From assembly GCF_000152985.1 (NCBI RefSeq), contig NZ_CH672395.1:2796461-2860460 (forward strand): a stretch of 64,000 bases of DNA, read 5' to 3'. Positions 18,860 through 29,345 of the stretch are shown here, in pieces. Below the pieces are notes generated by a model, which made no database searches, was not told the DNA's origin, and was given only the letters and a program-made list of their open reading frames with translations. The first letter of the stretch is position 1. Every line of letters begins with the position of its first letter. The position numbers were made by a program, and so were the translations under genes. This DNA is from Leeuwenhoekiella blandensis MED217 (GTDB taxonomy: Bacteria; Bacteroidota; Bacteroidia; Flavobacteriales; Flavobacteriaceae).

Positions 18860-21199
18860 TTAAGCACTCTTCATGGCTTCTAATTCTTTGACGTCTTTGG
18901 CTAAAAGCGTTTTTAGGATCGCGACGGTTTGTTTGGCGGCTTCTTCCGGTTGCAGCGCCGTATCAGAGATCCCGGAAACTACGCGTGAGATATCGTGATC
19001 TACCCAACGCTTTTTTGACCAACTGGCTGCCGGAGCGGCGGTGAGATACGCAGAGAAGTTATGATGCCCGCTCCCGGGGCGTTCCCCGATGATATGAACA
19101 ATTGCTTTGTTCCCGGCAAAATTATCGGCTCCAAACAAATGTTCGCCACAGGCATAACCCGCACGCACCCTACCGTGGGTGATCACCAGATTTTTAGCAC
19201 TCGTAGTATAGCCTTCGTTATGGAGTTGGTCTTTTAGTGTATTCAAAAATGGAAGTAAATGACCATCATCCATCAAAGCTCGGGCGTTGAGTCCGTCTGA
19301 AATGATGATTTGAACATCAGGAATCTGATTCCAACTTTGGCGCAGTTCTTTCAGTTTTCGGGTGGCGTCGAATGACAGTTCTTCCCCACTTTCCGGGTGA
19401 TATACATAATCTTTTCGATCTTCTGACCGGGTTTTGATCAATAAAGCCTGCGCTATTGAAGCTGCAAAAGATGCATCCATTGGCGTCCATAAACTTTCCT
19501 TAGCGTCTTCATACAGCTTTTTAACTTCGGCTTCTAATGCCGGATCCAAATCCCAAACATGTTCCCCAAAACCTTCAGCGATCGCTACTCCCCGATCTCG
19601 AATTTCTTTTAAGGTATTTTCGGCTTCCTGATAAATTTCAGATTTGCTGCGCGTATCGCCTTGGGCTTGCTTAAACTTATAATACACCCATTTGGGATCA
19701 CCAAAATGCGCTGTAGGTTTTCCTTCGGCATCTATAACTTCTAGCTTTTTAAAGAACTCCCACATCGCATCATTGATCTTGTAACCAAACTTTTCGCGAA
19801 TGCGCACATGGTCTGCAAAAGAGGTAGTGAGATAACTCAGCATCGGGTCGTTTTTTGTGGGCAGCGCCATCAAATAAGCAGGATTTGCAGGCATAACTTG
19901 TTCTATACACCAACTCAAATCTTCTAATGAAACATCCATATGCAAGGTGGAACAAATATCAAGGCCAATCGTTAGGCCATGCAATTTGCCCATAACCGTA
20001 TCTTCAAGACAGCAGCGTACGAGTTGTTCTTTGGTCTTAAAAACTTCAGGGCCGATAAATCCCGCAACATCATTTACGTGTACCCACGGCTGTGCACCTT
20101 CCTGGTTTTGTGCTTTCAATTGTTCTTGAAGTGCTCTCACAAAACCATATTTGCGCGACTCATGCAACACCATATCAAATCCTGATCCGTGGCCGTTGGT
20201 AAAATCGGCACCTTGCCCGGTTTCGGCATACAAACCGTAACGCCCGTTGCGCTGCCGGGTATACTCTTGCATTTTATCAAGGCTCACGTCAAAGGTTTTA
20301 TTGGCCGCAACCGTACCTGCCAAACTTTGAAACCAGATTCCCGTTGTACCGGGATGCTTTGCTTCTACTTCTGCCTGCACATCAATATGCGATAGCACAC
20401 AGTTAGACAACGTATCTTCTAACTCAAAAGTGGTTAAAATATCATAAAGCGCCGCTTCTATTTTTGCCACGGAAACCGGATCGCTAGACACCGGATTGGT
20501 CCCAAGTACCAAATCTCCCACCGCATACGACCAGGCATCAAAAACCTGCCAGATAATATCATCGGTATTATCGGTTGGGGAATTGGGCTGAACACGAGCA
20601 CTTAGATAACCTTTACTACCGATTTGACTTCCCGCCAGCGGGTTGAAAACCTTTTGACCTACAAGAATAAGTTCGTCATTAGACATCAACTTAACCACGC
20701 AACCGATCACATCACTGCTCAAAGCCGGCATAATGCGTTTGACCTCAGCTTCCGCTTGTTCTAGAATAAAGGTTTTAAGGTCTAAAATGCTAAAAGATTC
20801 CAATTCGGGAGGAGCAGTCGCTGTGGTTTCTCGCACCAAATCATACAAGGCATCCTGAAAAATCAGGTGTTTATCTATAGAAGCAATTTTGGTATTCCCT
20901 AACAATTCACGGGCTGTCGCTCTACTCGCATCATCTGCCGCAGCAAGTCCCAAAGTCAAATCACCTTCTTTAAATGCGTTAGCGGCACCTATGATCTTTC
21001 GATAAAGATCTGTATCGATCTTGCCTTGATTGCGCTGCAAATACGCAAAGATATCCTCGCCCTTCTTGGCAGGTTGAAGTTGAACCCGTTTTAGCGGTTC
21101 GCCATCATCCCCAATAAAATTACATCCGCTGAATAAAAGTGTTGCCGTGCTCATAAGTCCCATCTGAATTAAAAAATGCTTTCTAGAAATTGCTTCCAT
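18860..21199 (-). CDS. Fused ethanolamine ammonia-lyase EutB-EutC with lipoprotein signal
   Basis: This is an adenosylcobalamin-dependent ethanolamine ammonia-lyase with both subunits in one 779-residue chain. The EutB-like part (about 45-515) keeps residues known from E. coli EutB active sites: R202 and Q204 in SARVQPN, N235 in GTNPV, F290 in WFQS, E326 in AETGQG and D414 in GLDICS. The EutC-like part (about 545-770) has IIISDGLNA, HGRVRAGYACGE and IIGERPGSG. Separate subunits are about 450 and 295 residues, so the fusion is complete. The N-terminus has a Tat-like SRKHFL, a hydrophobic stretch and the lipobox FSGC (C26), predicting export and lipid anchoring, which is unusual for a B12 enzyme. 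No eutA, permease or microcompartment gene lies nearby. Confidence 0.92.
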   Translation of the reverse strand: MEAISRKHFLIQMGLMSTATLLFSGCNFIGDDGEPLKRVQLQPAKKGEDIFAYLQRNQGKIDTDLYRKIIGAANAFKEGDLTLGLAAADDASRATARELLGNTKIASIDKHLIFQDALYDLVRETTATAPPELESFSILDLKTFILEQAEAEVKRIMPALSSDVIGCVVKLMSNDELILVGQKVFNPLAGSQIGSKGYLSARVQPNSPTDNTDDIIWQVFDAWSYAVGDLVLGTNPVSSDPVSVAKIEAALYDILTTFELEDTLSNCVLSHIDVQAEVEAKHPGTTGIWFQSLAGTVAANKTFDVSLDKMQEYTRQRNGRYGLYAETGQGADFTNGHGSGFDMVLHESRKYGFVRALQEQLKAQNQEGAQPWVHVNDVAGFIGPEVFKTKEQLVRCCLEDTVMGKLHGLTIGLDICSTLHMDVSLEDLSWCIEQVMPANPAYLMALPTKNDPMLSYLTTSFADHVRIREKFGYKINDAMWEFFKKLEVIDAEGKPTAHFGDPKWVYYKFKQAQGDTRSKSEIYQEAENTLKEIRDRGVAIAEGFGEHVWDLDPALEAEVKKLYEDAKESLWTPMDASFAASIAQALLIKTRSEDRKDYVYHPESGEELSFDATRKLKELRQSWNQIPDVQIIISDGLNARALMDDGHLLPFLNTLKDQLHNEGYTTSAKNLVITHGRVRAGYACGEHLFGADNFAGNKAIVHIIGERPGSGHHNFSAYLTAAPAASWSKKRWVDHDISRVVSGISDTALQPEEAAKQTVAILKTLLAKDVKELEAMKSA

Positions 21200-21383: not shown

Positions 21384-21420
21384 AAAAAAAGCCCTGAAAT
21401 CCTACGGACTTCAGGGCTGC
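21384..21420 (-). terminator. Intrinsic terminator after the M1 peptidase gene
   Basis: The stem agccctgaa / ttcagggct is followed on the minus strand by a T run. It separates the arabinan-type cluster from the EutBC gene, which is therefore probably expressed independently. Confidence 0.85.
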
Positions 21421-21440: not shown

Positions 21441-23111
21441 TTATAATTCTTTGACTAAAACTACATTGAGGTAATACATTTTTTCAATACGATCTGGCGT
21501 TAACAGGTATTGATTTTTCATCGTAATATCTACCGCTTTCCAGGTATTCGCTACCGGAAATATTTTCAGCTCTTCGTGCGTTCCAACCAGACTTAAGGGC
21601 AAATCAAAGCCTTCAATACAGTTGACATAGCGGTATTTGATTTGACTATTTTCAGCATCTACAAAAAGTTCTAAAGTTGGAATCTCGGTCGTAGTCAAAT
21701 ACTGCTCAAAAACTTTAGAATAATCAAAGTCGGCTTTGCGCGAAATATAATCCTGTACCTCACTACCATCAACGGTTTTATTATGAAAAGTCTGATTCAA
21801 CCCGGCCAAAATGTTTCTGAACAATTGATCGTTATTGATGCTGTGTCGAATGCTGTGTAGCATATTTCCGCCTTTAGGATACATATCGCCACTTCCCTGA
21901 GCATTTACACCATACGCGGGAATAATAGGCGTTTTATTGCCAATCCCTTGTCGAATACCGTAATTATATTCATTTGCAGCTTCAGGACCGTAATTATAAT
22001 CTATAAATAAGGTCTCGCTGTAATTGGTAAAGCTTTCGTGAACATACATATCTGCGAGGTCGTTTGTGGTGATGTTGTTGCCAAACCACTCGTGACCGCT
22101 TTCGTGAATGATGATAAAATCCCAGGTCAAACCCAGTCCGGTGCCTGAGCCGTCACGACCGCGATAACCGCCGGCATAGTAATTTCCGTAAGAAACCGCC
22201 GATTGATGCTCCATACCGGTATTGTCTACTTCTATCAGCTTGTAACCATCCTCATAAAACGGATACGGCCCAAACCAATACTCAAAGGCATTCAACATAT
22301 TATGCACTTCTTTAGGCATATACTCTTTGGCTTTTTCCAGGTTATAATCCAGCACCCAATAATTGAGATCAAGATCGCCTTTTACACCCGGATGTACCTC
22401 TTTAAAATTCTCGTAATGCCCGATATACGGAATGATCGTATAATTACTTATCGGGTTTTCAACACCCCATTTATAACTCGTAGTACTATCTTGATGTTCG
22501 GTTTTATCCAGTAAGCGACCGTTAGCCACGGCAGTCAACGCATCAGGAACACGCATCGTTAATGAAGCACCACGATCGGGTTCGTCGCTTTGATGATCTT
22601 TATTGGGATACCAGATAGAAGCGCCCAAACCTTGACACGTAACGGTCATCAATGGTCTGCCTTCTGCGTCTTTAGAAAAAGACCAGCCACCATCCCACGG
22701 TGGTCGTACCGCCACGTGCGGATTTCCACTGAAAAAGATTTTTACGGTATGCTCAGAATCTAATTCCTGCGGAAGTGTATTGACCCAATACACATTACCT
22801 TCTCTTTTAAATTGTAGTTCGGTTGCATCGTCAAAAAGAATGCGGTCGATCACCAGCGGTTCTTGCAAATCGATCTGCATCACATCAGGATGTTTTTCCT
22901 GAACCACTTTATAGGTGATTTGATTTGCCCCGGAAGTAAACTGCTTATCATAATCGGGTTGCACCTCAATATCGTAGCGCATCACATCCCACCACGCCCG
23001 CTGTGGAGTAATGCTTCCGCGTAAACTATCGGCTCTTGTAAATTCTTGTGCAGCAACAGAAAGACTCAAAATAAGTCCCAAGACTGTCAGCAAATTGACT
23101 TTTCTATTCAA
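21441..23111 (-). CDS. Secreted M1 family aminopeptidase
   Basis: This zinc aminopeptidase of the gluzincin M1 family is exported (signal peptide ending VAAQ, about 22). The 556 residues contain the exopeptidase-type motif GMEHQS (299-304), the zinc motif HESGH (336-340) and the third ligand E359 in VHESFTNYSE. The long C-terminal helical domain of classical M1 enzymes is missing, as in shorter bacterial M1 relatives. It starts 3 nt after the DUF5695 gene on the same strand, so it is very likely in the same operon, an odd partner for glycoside-related genes. Confidence 0.9.
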   Translation of the reverse strand: MNRKVNLLTVLGLILSLSVAAQEFTRADSLRGSITPQRAWWDVMRYDIEVQPDYDKQFTSGANQITYKVVQEKHPDVMQIDLQEPLVIDRILFDDATELQFKREGNVYWVNTLPQELDSEHTVKIFFSGNPHVAVRPPWDGGWSFSKDAEGRPLMTVTCQGLGASIWYPNKDHQSDEPDRGASLTMRVPDALTAVANGRLLDKTEHQDSTTSYKWGVENPISNYTIIPYIGHYENFKEVHPGVKGDLDLNYWVLDYNLEKAKEYMPKEVHNMLNAFEYWFGPYPFYEDGYKLIEVDNTGMEHQSAVSYGNYYAGGYRGRDGSGTGLGLTWDFIIIHESGHEWFGNNITTNDLADMYVHESFTNYSETLFIDYNYGPEAANEYNYGIRQGIGNKTPIIPAYGVNAQGSGDMYPKGGNMLHSIRHSINNDQLFRNILAGLNQTFHNKTVDGSEVQDYISRKADFDYSKVFEQYLTTTEIPTLELFVDAENSQIKYRYVNCIEGFDLPLSLVGTHEELKIFPVANTWKAVDITMKNQYLLTPDRIEKMYYLNVVLVKEL

Positions 23112-23114
23112 TGT

Positions 23115-25811
23115 TTAGTGTTTTAGGGTAAGTGTGATCGGTTTTGCCTGAAGCGGAATTTTATATGCACCGCGCACCTTCTCATAATCTAGTGCATATT
23201 CTTCCGGAAGGTTTACATAAGCAAACGGTGTGATTTCCGTTTTAGGCGCTAGCCTAAGTTGAACCTCTTTCGTTTTCTTATCAAAGCTAACTTGTTGAAC
23301 TGCTCCGGCATCTAAAGTGATCCACAAGGCTAACGGCTGAACAAACACCGCATTTTTAGCAGCGGTCGTTAATTGCATTGTAACCGAATTCTTTTCTTCT
23401 GTAAGATTTCCGCCGAAGGCCAAATAGCCCAATTCTGCATCTTCAACCAAATACGCCGAAGAATTGATCGCGTAACCATAGAAATTAGAACCGTAATCGC
23501 CAGACAGGTAATCGATCTCTAGCGTTGAAGGCCAACTGTGAAAAGCTGCCGCTCCAAAACCATCTTCCGTAATATTAGAAACCGCGCCTAGCAAGCCGCC
23601 GTAGCCCACTTTCAACAAATGCAAATCCTCAGGATTTTCCCGATAATTGTCCAATACAGGAATTGCATTAAGTCCGGAACCGTAATGATGAATCTGGCGC
23701 TCTACACGCGATAGTTTACCACCATAAAGAAAATCCCAATAACGGCGAGCATTCCCATTATACGCCCAGTGCGGCATTGTAGGCATATAGGCTAAAATAG
23801 CGCTCAAAGTCACCGCAGCTTTGGCGTCGTACCCAAAATAATCAGACCACATATACACCTCTTCCTGACCGGTAGAATCCCACGGCATCTCACTACCAAA
23901 AGGATAGGCCAGCGACTCCCAATGATCGGCACGTTTTTTCATTTCGGCTTCAAGCTTGGTAGCTTCTTCTGTGAGTTGCTCGCGTTTTAAATCTTTGAGT
24001 ACGTGCAGAAAAATACTTCCTTCCATCTGACCAAACTGCGCATAATACGGAGCCTGAGTAGTCATCGCCAATGTGGTTTGATACGCCTGTTCCAGATACC
24101 ATTTCCAGTCTTTTTGAGTGACCAGATTATCATAATAGCGTGACAAGCGGTAGAGCGTCCAATAGGCAGCAACCACGTGCGGATAGTTGTACGATCTACC
24201 GGGATCTGCAGCTCCTTCTTTATTCCAGGCTGCCCAGGTATTCCAATTTATCGTGTCGTTATACGTGCCTGCCGGAAATTCTTCCGGTTCATAATACAAC
24301 ACACTTTTACGCACGCCATATTTATGTTCGCCCTCAGCATTTTGTAACACGCCCCAAACGGTTTGGTTTACAAAATCTTCTAGTTTTGAAACCTGTTCTT
24401 GATCGGGCTGAAGGTATTGTTTCATCATTCCGCCTAACCAGCTTCCGGCGCCACCTTCATCGCTCAAACCGGCGATCCAAACCCTTCCGTCTTGCGTCAC
24501 CTGTCGCTTGTTCTGATAATCATACGAAATCAATGAAGGTGCTCTGTTGAACAGATCTTCATCGTCATCAAACCATTGATTATCGAACAAGAAATTCCCA
24601 AAGTCAGCAACCAATTCACTTTCAGGCTTAATAACTTTATAGTTGATGCTTTGTGTTTTTCCATTCGTGTACTTGATTTCGACACGCGCTCTTCCCCACT
24701 GATTTCCGGTAACGGTGTACACATCATACGCATTCCTATCTGCTTCTTTCTCAACCGAAAGTGCACCTTCAGGAGTCACCTTGATACTACTTACATCAGA
24801 ATTATATTTTAAAAATAATTTTCCCTGTACATCCTGCGGAAGCACATAGCCCGGAACACCAACAGCCACCGGCATATCTTTTTCCGTCAGTTGTTGTTGT
24901 ACTTTTTTGATTTCCGGAGCAAGTGTCAATCGTACTGAAAATGTTTTGAGTTCGCCTGGTTTTAAGAAACCTGACGTTGGCGTATTCCATTGCTTTACAC
25001 CTTCCCATTCGTCTGAAGCATAAGCCTTGCTATTGGCCATCCACTCGTGAAAACCTTCAAACACAATGCTGCGTGGCGAAGGATCGTCAAGCAACGGGCG
25101 ATAGGCTTCAAATGGCATATTGTTCTCAGGAAGAACAAGTAAAGTTTTGCCTTTTCCGTCTAAGCGTTTTACTTCGAGATAGCCTGCATCAAGCCCGATA
25201 TATGGATCGAAAAATACATTTTTAGCATGCGCTTCTTCCAGCGAATTTCCTTCTAAAATATTGTTGAAGATCATCGGGATCCCCAGCGCGCCCAACTCGA
25301 CAGGTTGATCGGTTTTATTCTGAAAATCAAACGCCAAAATCAAGTCGCCGTCGGCTTCGGTATAATAGCGTGTAATACCAAGCGGAAGCTCTTCCGGCAA
25401 CGTATTGGCTAAATTGGCAGCAGCCAAAGCGCCTTCTTTAGCTATCGCTTCCACAGGTTTTCTGGCAGTCGCGGTTGAGACCGTATTCCAATCTTCTGAA
25501 CCATCCAGGCGGTATCTAAAATTGATATCTCCCAAATGGTAGAGTCCGTTGCCGGCTCTGATCTCCAAGCGGTCTCCAGGAGTAAAATCAAATTCAGGAT
25601 CTGATTTTGGAGCCAAGGAAGCCACCGTTTGCGAAGCCTTGACCAACTTGAGTATAAATTGATCGGTTTCTAAGGTTTCAAAGCCTGATTCAAGACCTAA
25701 AGTCGCTTCTCGCTCTTTGACTTTATCCCAATATTCCTGGGCTTGTGCACCTGCTGTAATGCCTATAAAAAGAAGGGTAAATACCCTTAATGCTTTTTTA
25801 TACGTGTTCAT
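23115..25811 (-). CDS. DUF5695 domain protein, probable glycoside-active enzyme
   Basis: This 898-residue exported protein (signal peptide ending AQAQ, about 25) matches what I recall of DUF5695 proteins: an N-terminal beta domain with LETDQFILKLVKASQTVASL and FDFTPGDRLEIRAGNGLYHLGD, followed by a helical region with many Trp and Tyr (about 430-720) that resembles an (alpha/alpha)6 barrel. No verified catalytic residues can be named. It lies 12 nt downstream of the GH51 gene on the same strand, so a role in degrading arabinose-containing glycans is plausible but inferred from context. Confidence 0.75.
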   Translation of the reverse strand: MNTYKKALRVFTLLFIGITAGAQAQEYWDKVKEREATLGLESGFETLETDQFILKLVKASQTVASLAPKSDPEFDFTPGDRLEIRAGNGLYHLGDINFRYRLDGSEDWNTVSTATARKPVEAIAKEGALAAANLANTLPEELPLGITRYYTEADGDLILAFDFQNKTDQPVELGALGIPMIFNNILEGNSLEEAHAKNVFFDPYIGLDAGYLEVKRLDGKGKTLLVLPENNMPFEAYRPLLDDPSPRSIVFEGFHEWMANSKAYASDEWEGVKQWNTPTSGFLKPGELKTFSVRLTLAPEIKKVQQQLTEKDMPVAVGVPGYVLPQDVQGKLFLKYNSDVSSIKVTPEGALSVEKEADRNAYDVYTVTGNQWGRARVEIKYTNGKTQSINYKVIKPESELVADFGNFLFDNQWFDDDEDLFNRAPSLISYDYQNKRQVTQDGRVWIAGLSDEGGAGSWLGGMMKQYLQPDQEQVSKLEDFVNQTVWGVLQNAEGEHKYGVRKSVLYYEPEEFPAGTYNDTINWNTWAAWNKEGAADPGRSYNYPHVVAAYWTLYRLSRYYDNLVTQKDWKWYLEQAYQTTLAMTTQAPYYAQFGQMEGSIFLHVLKDLKREQLTEEATKLEAEMKKRADHWESLAYPFGSEMPWDSTGQEEVYMWSDYFGYDAKAAVTLSAILAYMPTMPHWAYNGNARRYWDFLYGGKLSRVERQIHHYGSGLNAIPVLDNYRENPEDLHLLKVGYGGLLGAVSNITEDGFGAAAFHSWPSTLEIDYLSGDYGSNFYGYAINSSAYLVEDAELGYLAFGGNLTEEKNSVTMQLTTAAKNAVFVQPLALWITLDAGAVQQVSFDKKTKEVQLRLAPKTEITPFAYVNLPEEYALDYEKVRGAYKIPLQAKPITLTLKH

Positions 25812-25823
25812 ATACGTTGATTT

Positions 25824-28163
25824 CTAATTTAATTTGAATTTATAGATTCCTGCCGACTCCTTAGCGACCTGTAAGCTGTTATGCTCCAACTCAAAAGAAG
25901 TTTCTTCGAGGTAGATACTGTTTTTATGTGTAACATCATTATACACCATATCGTTGGCTCCTGTGATCACAAAAGCTGTTCCTTGCGTTGGAATATTTTC
26001 AGTAATAAAGTCAAGCGCTAAGTGATACTCCTGATGCGTAGCATTGATAACCGAAAGTGTTAAATATGTTCCGTCTTCGGTTAATGTAGCCGCAACATCT
26101 AAAGGCTCTGGAGCACCCGAAACCGCAACAGGAATAGTACCGAATTCTTTTCGGTACGTTTTTAAGACTAATCCGGTTCCCTCAAGCCAGCTGTCAGTAG
26201 GTGTTGTTTTTATCGCTCCGATCACATTCACCGTTTGCGCATAATTGGCCATATAATACATCTCAGACTGGCGTGAGAATTCATTCAATCCTGCGGCAAT
26301 TCCTAAAGCATCGCGCAAGAAATAACGCGTTCCCAACAATCCAAACTCGTGCGGACCGTACCAATAATTCCATTCATCAAGTGCGATCTTGATATCACGA
26401 TCTGCGATTCCCGGAATTTCCCTGCGAGCCCTACGGTGTTCTTCTGCGATTTCTCTAATCGCATCCGGCATTTGCTTTACATGCGTGAGCAAACCGCCTG
26501 CATGCCAATCCTGACGGTAAAAATGCTCGCTGATGTAGGTCATATTTTCAGCTGTATTTTGATACATCATATCATTCCATTCCCCGGGATAACCTACGGC
26601 GATGAGATCTATATCGGGATCTACTGCCCACATTGCTTCGGCTACTTTGTTATGCTTTTTCACATACTCTTCAATTGGCATATGGCCTAATTGCCAGTCG
26701 CCAAACATCTCGTTTCCTACCGCCCAAAGTTGAACATTATACGGCTCAGGATGACCATTTGCCGCGCGTCGTTTTCCCATAGGTGTAGTAGCTGCACCGT
26801 TAAAATACTCTACTTCGTTTGCTGCCAATGCTGCATCACCCAAACCGGTGTTCACGGCAATATTGGCTTCAGCATCTAGTATTTTGCAGAGTTGCATAAA
26901 CTCGTGAATACCCACATCGTTATATTCTAAGCCATTCCAGGCGCGCTCATATCGTGTAGGGCGTGCATCGGGATTGCCTATACCATCTTTCCAATCATAA
27001 CCCGAGACAAAATTTCCACCAGGCCAGCGGTAAATTGGGGAATCTAATTCTTTCAACAATGCGATCACATCCGGGCGAAAACCTTCAATATTATCCTCCG
27101 GCATTAAGGAAATTGCGGCGAGCGTGACTTTCCCGGTGCCACTAAAAGATACATTCAGCTTGGCAAGATCTCCAAAATTTGATTTCGGTTTCAGTTTAAA
27201 TTCTTTAGTAATAAAGTCTGTACTTTCTGAATTGATTAAACCTATAGTAGTTGATGAATTGGCGGTTTCTAAACCAATTTTGACGCCCGTAACACCGTTG
27301 TCAGCTTTGTAAACAATACGACCGATATAAGATTTATCGGCGTATAATGAAATAGAGTCCTGATAAATAAGAACTGAATCATTTTTGACATTAAAAACCG
27401 GTAAAGCCATTTCTGAAAAACCGTTTTCGGCATCTAATGTGATTCTGGTTGTATCTACGCTCGTCGCCCAGGGAGAATTACTGGTTCCCGGTTTATGATA
27501 AAATTTACGGTCGGTTAGCATTTCAGCCCATAAGCCACCATAGATAGATTTACCCATATGCTCGATGAACTGGCCGTAGATATACGGCGACATCGGTTCC
27601 TTTTGCGCTTCCAGATCGATGCTAACTTTAGGTTCTAGGGTTTCTGCTGAAAGTTCTTCAAGCTTGATATCCTTAAAATAGGCAGTTCCTGAAGCAGGCG
27701 CGTTTTTCCCTAAAAGACATTCAATAATAAAACTATCGTCTCCTTCAGTATTAAACGTCATTTCGACCGGTGTCCAGGCAGTAGTACCTGTAAAAACAGT
27801 ATCTGTTTTAGAAGAAAATTTACCTAAACCAAATCCCGCTCCGGCATTGGGTTTATCTGTCGAGACATTTTCAGTTTTTACAAATCCGCTGACTTTATAT
27901 TGTGCGTAGGGCTTTACATTTACTTTCTTAAAAACGCGTCCCATCTGCAAGCTGTCGTGATTGATCACCAAAACTCTGGCATCGGTATCCTTGAACGTAC
28001 TGTCTGAATAATTCTCTTGATTGCTCCAATATTCTGTTTCCCATCCGGCTTCTTTAAACGTTGAACTGGCATCAGGAGATAGATCGATAAGGCTTGGCTC
28101 TTGCTTTGTCTGGCAAGAAAGAAACAAGCTCAAGCCAATAAGAGCGAGTGTATATTTAATCAT
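25824..28163 (-). CDS. Alpha-L-arabinofuranosidase, GH51, lipoprotein
   Basis: This exo-enzyme is predicted to release L-arabinofuranose from arabinan or arabinoxylan. The 779 residues start with a lipoprotein signal (LFLSC, Cys 17). A carbohydrate-binding-like beta domain (about 30-170) precedes the GH51 catalytic part, which opens with SPYIYGQFIEHMGKSIYGG. The acid/base is E485 in AVGNEMFGDW and the nucleophile E597 in ALDEWNYW; RWPGGNFVSGYDW and a C-terminal beta domain are also present. It is the first gene of a minus-strand unit with the DUF5695 and M1 genes, and it diverges from an AraC-type regulator across a 336-nt intergenic region. Confidence 0.94.
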   Translation of the reverse strand: MIKYTLALIGLSLFLSCQTKQEPSLIDLSPDASSTFKEAGWETEYWSNQENYSDSTFKDTDARVLVINHDSLQMGRVFKKVNVKPYAQYKVSGFVKTENVSTDKPNAGAGFGLGKFSSKTDTVFTGTTAWTPVEMTFNTEGDDSFIIECLLGKNAPASGTAYFKDIKLEELSAETLEPKVSIDLEAQKEPMSPYIYGQFIEHMGKSIYGGLWAEMLTDRKFYHKPGTSNSPWATSVDTTRITLDAENGFSEMALPVFNVKNDSVLIYQDSISLYADKSYIGRIVYKADNGVTGVKIGLETANSSTTIGLINSESTDFITKEFKLKPKSNFGDLAKLNVSFSGTGKVTLAAISLMPEDNIEGFRPDVIALLKELDSPIYRWPGGNFVSGYDWKDGIGNPDARPTRYERAWNGLEYNDVGIHEFMQLCKILDAEANIAVNTGLGDAALAANEVEYFNGAATTPMGKRRAANGHPEPYNVQLWAVGNEMFGDWQLGHMPIEEYVKKHNKVAEAMWAVDPDIDLIAVGYPGEWNDMMYQNTAENMTYISEHFYRQDWHAGGLLTHVKQMPDAIREIAEEHRRARREIPGIADRDIKIALDEWNYWYGPHEFGLLGTRYFLRDALGIAAGLNEFSRQSEMYYMANYAQTVNVIGAIKTTPTDSWLEGTGLVLKTYRKEFGTIPVAVSGAPEPLDVAATLTEDGTYLTLSVINATHQEYHLALDFITENIPTQGTAFVITGANDMVYNDVTHKNSIYLEETSFELEHNSLQVAKESAGIYKFKLN

Positions 28164-28499: not shown

Positions 28500-29345
28500 A
28501 TGAAAGTTCTCCCCTTTAAAATACCGAAACCTGGTAAAGAAGCCTTGGTCTATCAAGAAGACCACGAACTCAAATTTTACGATAAGTTACATGAGCACGA
28601 AGAGATTCAGATCAGTTACATTGCTAAAGGATCAGGCAGCCTCCTCTTGGGTGATACGATCAATGAGTATCGCGAAGGCGATATATTGGTCATTGGCGAA
28701 CACGTTCCGCACGTTTTTAGAAGCGATAATACTGCTACCGACAAATCGGTGATGTACACGCTGTTTTTTACTAAACATTCTTTTGGTAAGGAGTTTTTTA
28801 AACTCACCGAAATGTCAGGTATTGACAGTTTTTTCAATGAGGCAGAAAACGGAATGAAAATCACCTCGAATACCGATTTACTGATCAATAAATTCTCCAA
28901 GCTTAAAAATCAAAGTCGTATAGAGCGTCTTGCTTCATTTTTACAGATTCTTGATTTAATCCAGCAGTCTGAAAAAACACCTTTATCCTCTTTTGTCTAT
29001 CATAAAAAATATACCGATGTTGAAGGTAAACGTATGAGCGACGTGTATCAATACACCTTAGATCATTTTCAGGAGAACATCACCCTCGATATGATCGCGG
29101 AGGTCGCAAATATGACCAAAAATGCCTTCTGCCGATATTTTAAAAGACGTACCAACAAAACCTATTTACAGTTTTTGATCGAGCTGCGTATAGAGCATGC
29201 TTGTAAATTGTTGTATAAAGAAAGAGAGCTTTCGGTAGCTGCGATATCAGAGCTTTGTGGTTTTCAGAATATCGCTAATTTCAACCGAAAATTTAAAGAG
29301 TTAAAACACACCACGCCGTCAAAATATCGGTTACAGGTTGCTTAA
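28500..29345 (+). CDS. AraC-family transcriptional regulator with cupin sensor
   Basis: This 281-residue transcription factor has an N-terminal cupin domain (about 20-120; HEHEEIQISYIAKGSGSLLL and EGDILVIGEHVPHVF) and a C-terminal AraC/XylS double helix-turn-helix (about 180-281; NMTKNAFCRYFKRRTNKTYL and ISELCGFQNIANFNRKFKEL). The cupin probably senses a sugar. It is divergent from the GH51 operon and is the obvious candidate to control it, though the ligand and sites are inferred. Its TAA stop shares the four bases TTAA with the stop of the convergent M23 gene. Confidence 0.92.
   Translation: MKVLPFKIPKPGKEALVYQEDHELKFYDKLHEHEEIQISYIAKGSGSLLLGDTINEYREGDILVIGEHVPHVFRSDNTATDKSVMYTLFFTKHSFGKEFFKLTEMSGIDSFFNEAENGMKITSNTDLLINKFSKLKNQSRIERLASFLQILDLIQQSEKTPLSSFVYHKKYTDVEGKRMSDVYQYTLDHFQENITLDMIAEVANMTKNAFCRYFKRRTNKTYLQFLIELRIEHACKLLYKERELSVAAISELCGFQNIANFNRKFKELKHTTPSKYRLQVA

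Follow-up and report, generated by a model that had tools for sequence, protein, structure and literature searches.

The window, a 64,000-nucleotide stretch of the Leeuwenhoekiella blandensis MED217 genome, carries on its minus strand a single 779-aa open reading frame in which both subunits of ethanolamine ammonia-lyase (EAL), EutB and EutC, are joined. The frame has an ATG start and the same coordinates as in an earlier sequence-only reading, and this fused gene (eutBC) is present in one copy in its own genome. The gene, its parts and its upstream neighbourhood are arranged as follows.

18860..21199, minus strand: fused EutB-EutC gene, 779 aa, predicted exported-type ethanolamine ammonia-lyase (open reading frame, Pfam, NCBIfam, phmmer and alignment)
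21122..21199, minus strand: putative signal sequence, residues 1-26, with Tat-like SRKHFL (residues 5-10), a weak h-region and lipobox-like LFSGC ending in Cys26 (sequence reading)
19709..21001, minus strand: EutB domain, residues 67-497 (Pfam; Foldseek match to 3abo_A)
19547..19693, minus strand: linker, residues 503-551, modelled as mostly helical (AlphaFold2 helices 502-512 and 519-535)
18896..19546, minus strand: EutC domain, residues 552-768 (Pfam; alignment; Foldseek match to 3abo_B)
21390..21418, minus strand: terminator-like hairpin of 13 pairs with a T run, between the upstream M1 peptidase gene and eutBC
21441-23111, minus strand: secreted-looking M1 peptidase family protein, upstream of eutBC

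The fusion claimed by the sequence-only reading is borne out by the presence of both Pfam domains in the one frame. The EutB domain scores 438.6 bits against PF06751 (cut-off 25), and this part of the protein also exceeds the cut-off of the NCBIfam model PRK15067 (576.2 against 554 bits). The EutC domain scores 122.6 bits against PF05985 (cut-off 25.8) and falls below the cut-off of the NCBIfam equivalog PRK05465 (88.7 against 230 bits); in the alignment, the counterpart of most of the E. coli EutC N-terminal region is absent. Among relatives of solved structure, phmmer ranked E. coli and Listeria EutB first and E. coli EutC next. A single-chain AlphaFold2 model, built from a 34-row alignment, had a mean pLDDT of 84.8 and a pTM of 0.83, with pLDDT <50 at residues 1-35. 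When this model was searched with Foldseek, EAL chains ranked best (3abo_A, Listeria EutB chains and EutC chains, 3abo_B among the latter), followed by diol and glycerol dehydratases; by target length, the TM-scores were 0.88 against 3abo_A, at 30% identity, and 0.72 against 3abo_B. Sequence and predicted fold both point to membership of the EAL family.

Nine positions of E. coli EutB, which we take to be active-site residues, were compared across 34 fused sequences, rows <700 aa being left out. R160, Q162, N193, S247 and F258 correspond to R202, Q204, N235, S292 and F303 of the window protein, and E287, F329, D362 and M392 to E326, F381, D414 and M444; all nine are identical in 34/34 rows, in agreement with the earlier claim that the active-site residues are retained. 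The EutC motifs SDG, GRV and GERPG are likewise kept in this alignment. Outside it, M392 is replaced by I in 7/7 rhizobial loci (L133-L139), the sole change there among the nine positions, and F258 is replaced by I in a distant fused relative, L120.

The N-terminus of the window protein reads MEAISRKHFLIQMGLMSTATLLFSGC. The start appears well fixed, because a stop codon lies six codons upstream, with only one ATG ahead of the signal, and later start-type codons are found only at residues 13 and 16, both within the signal, and at residue 54. The sequence-only reading had named a true start further downstream, removing the signal, as a threat to its interpretation; a start at residue 54 would come at the cost of Y53, which is invariant in alignment A1. 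Tat signals consist of an S/T-R-R-x-F-L-K type motif ahead of a weakly hydrophobic h-region. Here the motif is SRKHFL, the h-region has a value of 1.42 and TatC is encoded in the same genome; since the arginine pair is replaced by RK, use of Tat by this protein is unproven. The h-region is closed by a cysteine in a lipobox-like LFSGC, and a phenylalanine at -3 of the cysteine is also found in 5/30 neighbouring lipoprotein-like N-termini, near-duplicates included.

Export-like N-termini recur across the fused relatives. A census was made of 59 non-redundant fused sequences, after removal of the duplicates L010, L013, L022, L079 and L109, with classes assigned by eye and the listed motifs and the sum of 59 confirmed in a later check. 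It comprised 27 sequences with RR, 17 with RK (the window protein included), three with a single arginine, nine Sec-like and three without a signal. An export-like N-terminus was therefore read in 56/59, in a set that may lean towards signal-bearers, as KHFLIQMG, from the signal itself, was among the six patterns of the contig-scan query; searches with the whole protein gave 20 fused-type genomes, 18 with a signal and two without (L077 and L080), the third signal-less sequence, L120, being additional. The strict Tat-like pattern, which fits the window protein, was present in 41/59 fused sequences, against 5/293 neighbouring ORFs (at least 150 aa, first 60 residues), and xR[RK]x[FVL]x in 44/59. 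The single-arginine sequences (L005, SRDEFL; L017, SRNQFL; L021, TRTDFL) keep the lipobox. The Sec-like ones are L035, L037, L101, L102, L104-L107 and L110, of which L035 is labelled Deltaproteobacteria and was placed in Myxococcota. A cysteine in the lipobox place is found in 13/59, all labelled Bacteroidota and 12 of the 13 RK or single-arginine, a count that leaves out three further matches to a lipobox pattern, namely L025 (doubtful, its LSGC lying far past the h-region) and, placed elsewhere than at an h-region end, those in L078 and L120. Median h-region hydrophobicity was 1.69 for RR, 1.49 for RK, 1.56 for single-arginine and 2.88 (range 1.03-3.19) for Sec-like sequences, such that the window protein lies with the RR and RK groups and under the Sec-like median. 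No automatic value was obtained for L011, L030, L080 and L120. The signals of L004 and L058 are weak, because neither contains a charge-free stretch of 13 residues. Seven rhizobial plasmid loci carry TRRDLL, SRRDLL or SRRELL signals, with two from Sinorhizobium meliloti sharing one N-terminus.

The search for other fusions with a similar signal, as proposed in the sequence-only reading, strengthened its case for export. Its description of an exported lipoprotein holds in part: the N-terminus is export-like and lipobox-like in the window protein, and a clear lipobox is confined to the 13 sequences above. Similarly, the Tat-like motif it reported is present, with the qualification that it is of the RK type and that lipoprotein-like relatives have a single arginine. 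Relatives lacking any signal, which it had considered fatal to its view, do occur, as a minority of three. On these N-termini, an export-like signal is a trait of the fused family, the type of signal varying while the predicted export is kept.

By contrast, no export signal followed the likely start in any of the 30 comparison EutBs that could be used, which are either split or fused in another way (31 'classic' rows less the mis-located L116). An automatic value was obtained for 13 of the 31, and the rest were read by eye. In 17/30 the nearest ATG lies 14-18 residues ahead of the start of the match to the window protein, near residues 64-69 of the latter; one, L047, has a mildly hydrophobic stretch, but this is upstream of the likely ATG. 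The 30 include L087, L089, L117 and L118, signal-less frames of 705-798 aa that match EutB, with EutC matches located in equally long frames, at ~30% identity; these are apparently independent fusions.

A scan of genome contigs matched 64 stretches, 36 of which are relatives. The 59 fused sequences come from Bacteroidota, Planctomycetota and Desulfobacterota, with the rhizobial plasmid loci in addition. Counts in family and phylum samples indicate that the fused type is uncommon but wide. In the host's own family, 8/199 genomes matched, six with the fused type (its own included) and two with split genes; an EutB-family search of its phylum matched 13/395 genomes, two of fused type (440.6 and 461.9 bits) with the remaining 11 ordinary (700.9-732.9 bits). 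For the Pirellula-labelled locus L039, 19/246 genomes of its phylum matched, nine fused-type, and for the Desulfobacterales-labelled locus L037 the figure was 20/247, 11 fused-type. Among plasmid records, 25/72,556 matched at E <= 1e-100, all named Sinorhizobium, Ensifer or Pararhizobium, with signals read in seven of these 25.

Some individual loci merit description. The S. meliloti symbiotic megaplasmid pSymA (CP140920.1) carries an exported-type fusion annotated eutB (L136:9971-12319), with adhP and a phosphoketolase gene some genes upstream of it. At L135, another rhizobial locus, the frame is shorter (697 aa) and is matched in two pieces. The signal-less L120 (G914:C277), 38% identical to the window protein, shares a genome with the signal-bearing L106 (G914:C182), forming a natural pair for comparison of inside with outside. 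Stretches resembling eutB were also found in the phage-labelled records OR850921.1, OR846652.1, CAKLQH020000029.1, CAKLQF020000030.1 and MT836776.1, perhaps representing host DNA.

In a quick tree of 86 EutB rows the fused family was split from ordinary EutBs (SH-aLRT 99), and this branch had support of 100/100 in a careful tree that omitted 16 of these rows, L120 among them. The fused members from Bacteroidota form one clade (100/99, with 47 of the 59 fused rows used). The quick tree also united 53 signal-bearing rows (SH-aLRT 99) with L077 and L080 outside, as a single origin of the signal would have it; this idea was set aside, as the careful trees nest both signal-less sequences among the signal-bearers (87/81 in the tree with 47 fused rows). 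A constraint keeping the signal-bearers together was not rejected (p-AU 0.191).

Across 45 compared sources, several of them near-duplicates, the fused gene has no recurrent eut neighbour, and no neighbour indicating its role was found. The only neighbour recurring beyond one genus is the M1 peptidase, which was taken as no proof of a link. A secreted-looking M1 peptidase in an Echinicola locus (L014:9490-11178, minus strand) is 50% identical to that of the window, and identities between the Leeuwenhoekiella (window, L002/L010, L034) and Echinicola (L014, L015, L018) proteins are 48-50%; none lies near the fused gene in the Echinicola locus L020, and L029 has a remote M1 relative. In Leeuwenhoekiella the peptidase gene adjoins eutBC on the same strand, and in L014 and L015 it is two genes off on the other strand. 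The hairpin between the two genes suggests a separate transcript for eutBC, with four terminator-like sites found in the 64-kb stretch against 3.2 expected by shuffling. No riboswitch reached the gathering score in the window, L010 or L034. Beyond the peptidase (23115-28163, minus strand), a DUF5695 protein (1318 bits) lies beside a protein that has an alpha-L-arabinofuranosidase C-terminal domain and a lipobox-like N-terminus; with an AraC-type regulator at 28500-29345, this resembles a small glycan-use cluster.

The sequence-only reading had also stated that eutA and transport genes are missing, and this stands. In the window's own genome the EutA model has a single match, over 99/475 profile positions, to a protein that is FtsA, and neither EutH nor the TIGR00908 permease was found there. 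EutA-model matches occur in 10/13 relatives' genomes; seven of the candidates (L060, L064, L066-L070) are FtsA by Pfam, four (L061-L063, L065) are FtsA-like by their N-termini and L071 is below the cut-off. EutH was found in 0/16 genomes, the window's own included, and TIGR00908 was above its cut-off in 1/16, with weaker matches in eight more. Little weight attaches to the absence of EutH and TIGR00908, since the split-EutBC genomes G100 and G196 of the same family also lack both. A microcompartment-type eut system is marked by eutA, eutH and an EutC N-terminal extension bearing an encapsulation peptide; in the window's own genome the EutA model finds only FtsA, EutH has no match and the N-terminal part of EutC is missing.

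It had been concluded from these absences that cofactor loading and reactivation must differ, which goes too far. An Acinetobacter baumannii EAL supported Salmonella growth without EutA (PMC9426561), and the fused EutBC of Pelobacter carbinolicus also occurs without eutA (PMC3543383). Reactivation by EutA requires ATP (PMC5821096). In a survey of 14 genomes, TatC exceeded its cut-off in 13, the 14th giving a fragment, and a methylmalonyl-CoA mutase family protein was found in 12. A PduO-type adenosyltransferase was present in 13/14, a search for that type finding none in the Sec-like representative G588. Accordingly, a cell with the window's genome can make adenosylcobalamin (AdoCbl) inside, and the folded enzyme could leave by Tat.

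We consider it likely that the window protein is a one-chain, AdoCbl-dependent EAL that has been moved out of the cytoplasm. This reading builds on the fusion, the conserved catalytic-site positions, the family-wide export-like N-termini and the predicted fold, and extends from there to an export route, lipidation, location, loading order, substrate and physiological role that are all proposals. In this genus the enzyme would probably be held in the cell envelope by a lipid anchor at Cys26, with the fusion setting both subunits behind a single signal. Where the signal is of the Tat type, the protein most likely folds and receives its AdoCbl in the cytoplasm before leaving as a folded holoenzyme; members of the Sec-like branch would need to take up AdoCbl outside. 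Ethanolamine freed outside from phosphatidylethanolamine would then be converted to acetaldehyde and ammonia outside the cytoplasm, and ammonia, with diffusible acetaldehyde, would enter in place of the amine, such that no ethanolamine importer would be needed. The wider proposal of an AdoCbl radical enzyme family that is extracytoplasmic in at least four bacterial phyla, as a folded holoenzyme in the Tat lineages and as an apo-enzyme loaded outside in the Sec-like lineage, is one that we favour slightly. Points counted against the explanation are that EutA-type reactivation by ATP is not expected outside the cytoplasm, that AdoCbl is light-sensitive, and that no riboswitch at gathering score (window, L010 and L034) and no neighbour pointing to the role was found, alongside the RK motif, the three signal-less relatives, the weak L004 and L058 signals and the missing PduO type in G588.

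A variant of this explanation, whose odds overlap with its own and to which we assign a distinctly smaller probability, is that the protein is an ordinary lipoprotein exported by Sec, with the apo-enzyme folding outside and acquiring AdoCbl from the environment or from corrinoid-binding proteins at the surface. Surface B12-binding lipoproteins are reported in Bacteroidota (PMC6143338, PMC8941943), and the RK motif of the window protein, the lipoboxes behind a single arginine in L005, L017 and L021 and the nine Sec-like fused sequences all fit this route. It is countered by the low h-region hydrophobicity, resembling that of the RR group, and by the prevalence of xR[RK]x[FVL]x. Furthermore, multi-domain cofactor enzymes are the usual cargo of Tat.

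Exposure at the surface through a Bacteroidota lipoprotein export signal (LES) is unlikely. Reported LES motifs are position-dependent, being Q-K-D-D-E (+2 to +6) and C-X-K-(D/E)2-X in Capnocytophaga and SDDFE in F. johnsoniae (PMC5080379). Acidic residues do follow Cys26 (CNFIGDDGE), but they begin at +6, such that the +2 to +6 acidic motif of these organisms is not matched, and relatives do not conserve the stretch; the genus's own LES motif may differ. We find it improbable that the protein is an exported enzyme of EAL fold that acts on another vicinal amino alcohol or mainly binds corrinoid: identity to E. coli EutB is ~30%, and changes near the active site are common in the fused rows (C249A 32/34, N367L 34/34, L396T 34/34, D398N 32/34), but the nine catalytic-site positions are unchanged, and a mere binder would not need them. 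Little credence can be given to a cytoplasmic or inner-membrane-tethered enzyme whose hydrophobic N-terminus is no working export signal, as, although known EALs act inside the cell and the three signal-less fused relatives suggest that the enzyme needs none, a mere tether fails to explain why the N-terminus stays export-like while shifting between lipobox, Tat-like and Sec-like kinds, and split EutBs have no such stretch.

If an EAL does act outside the cytoplasm, as we prefer to read the locus, AdoCbl radical chemistry tolerates the periplasm or cell surface, folded cofactor-bearing enzymes of a new class join the cargo of Tat and there is an extracytoplasmic path from membrane-lipid ethanolamine to ammonia. 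To our knowledge, AdoCbl radical enzymes are regarded as working in the cytoplasm or in microcompartments, since it is within the cell, at the expense of ATP, that the cofactor is produced and renewed; conservation of a predicted export signal in distant bacterial groups suggests that this chemistry can run outside the cytoplasm. The S. meliloti member makes the family testable in a standard laboratory organism. Within the literature searched, most subscription journals being outside its scope, no exported EAL, no exported AdoCbl radical enzyme and no paper joining EAL with twin-arginine export was found.

Several known systems share parts of what is proposed. E. coli EutBC (3abo) resembles the window protein in predicted fold, in catalytic-site positions and in having both subunits, whereas the latter is fused, ~30% identical, bears an export-like signal, lacks most of the EutC N-terminal extension and is encoded without a surrounding eut operon. 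In Pelobacter carbinolicus, Pcar_0491 and Pcar_0467 are fused EutBC genes in a genome that, like that of the window, has no eutA; compared by description, they lie among putative uptake and cobalamin genes, with no signal on the lyase mentioned in the available text (PMC3543383). A. baumannii EutBC, also compared by description, functions with neither EutA nor a metabolosome, as the window protein would, and the accessible part of its report mentions no export (PMC9426561). The Bacteroidota B12-binding proteins BtuG and BtuH reportedly meet corrinoid outside the cytoplasm, but serve in its binding and uptake without catalysis. Respiratory reductive dehalogenases have a fold other than that of EAL and use no adenosyl radical chemistry. 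They differ further in combining [4Fe-4S] with cobalamin, and are similar as cobalamin enzymes with a Tat signal that are transported across the membrane (PMC7565698), as proposed here. Fused EutBC, EAL without eutA and Tat-borne cobalamin enzymes are therefore already in print, and it is the predicted exported form of EAL that is new.
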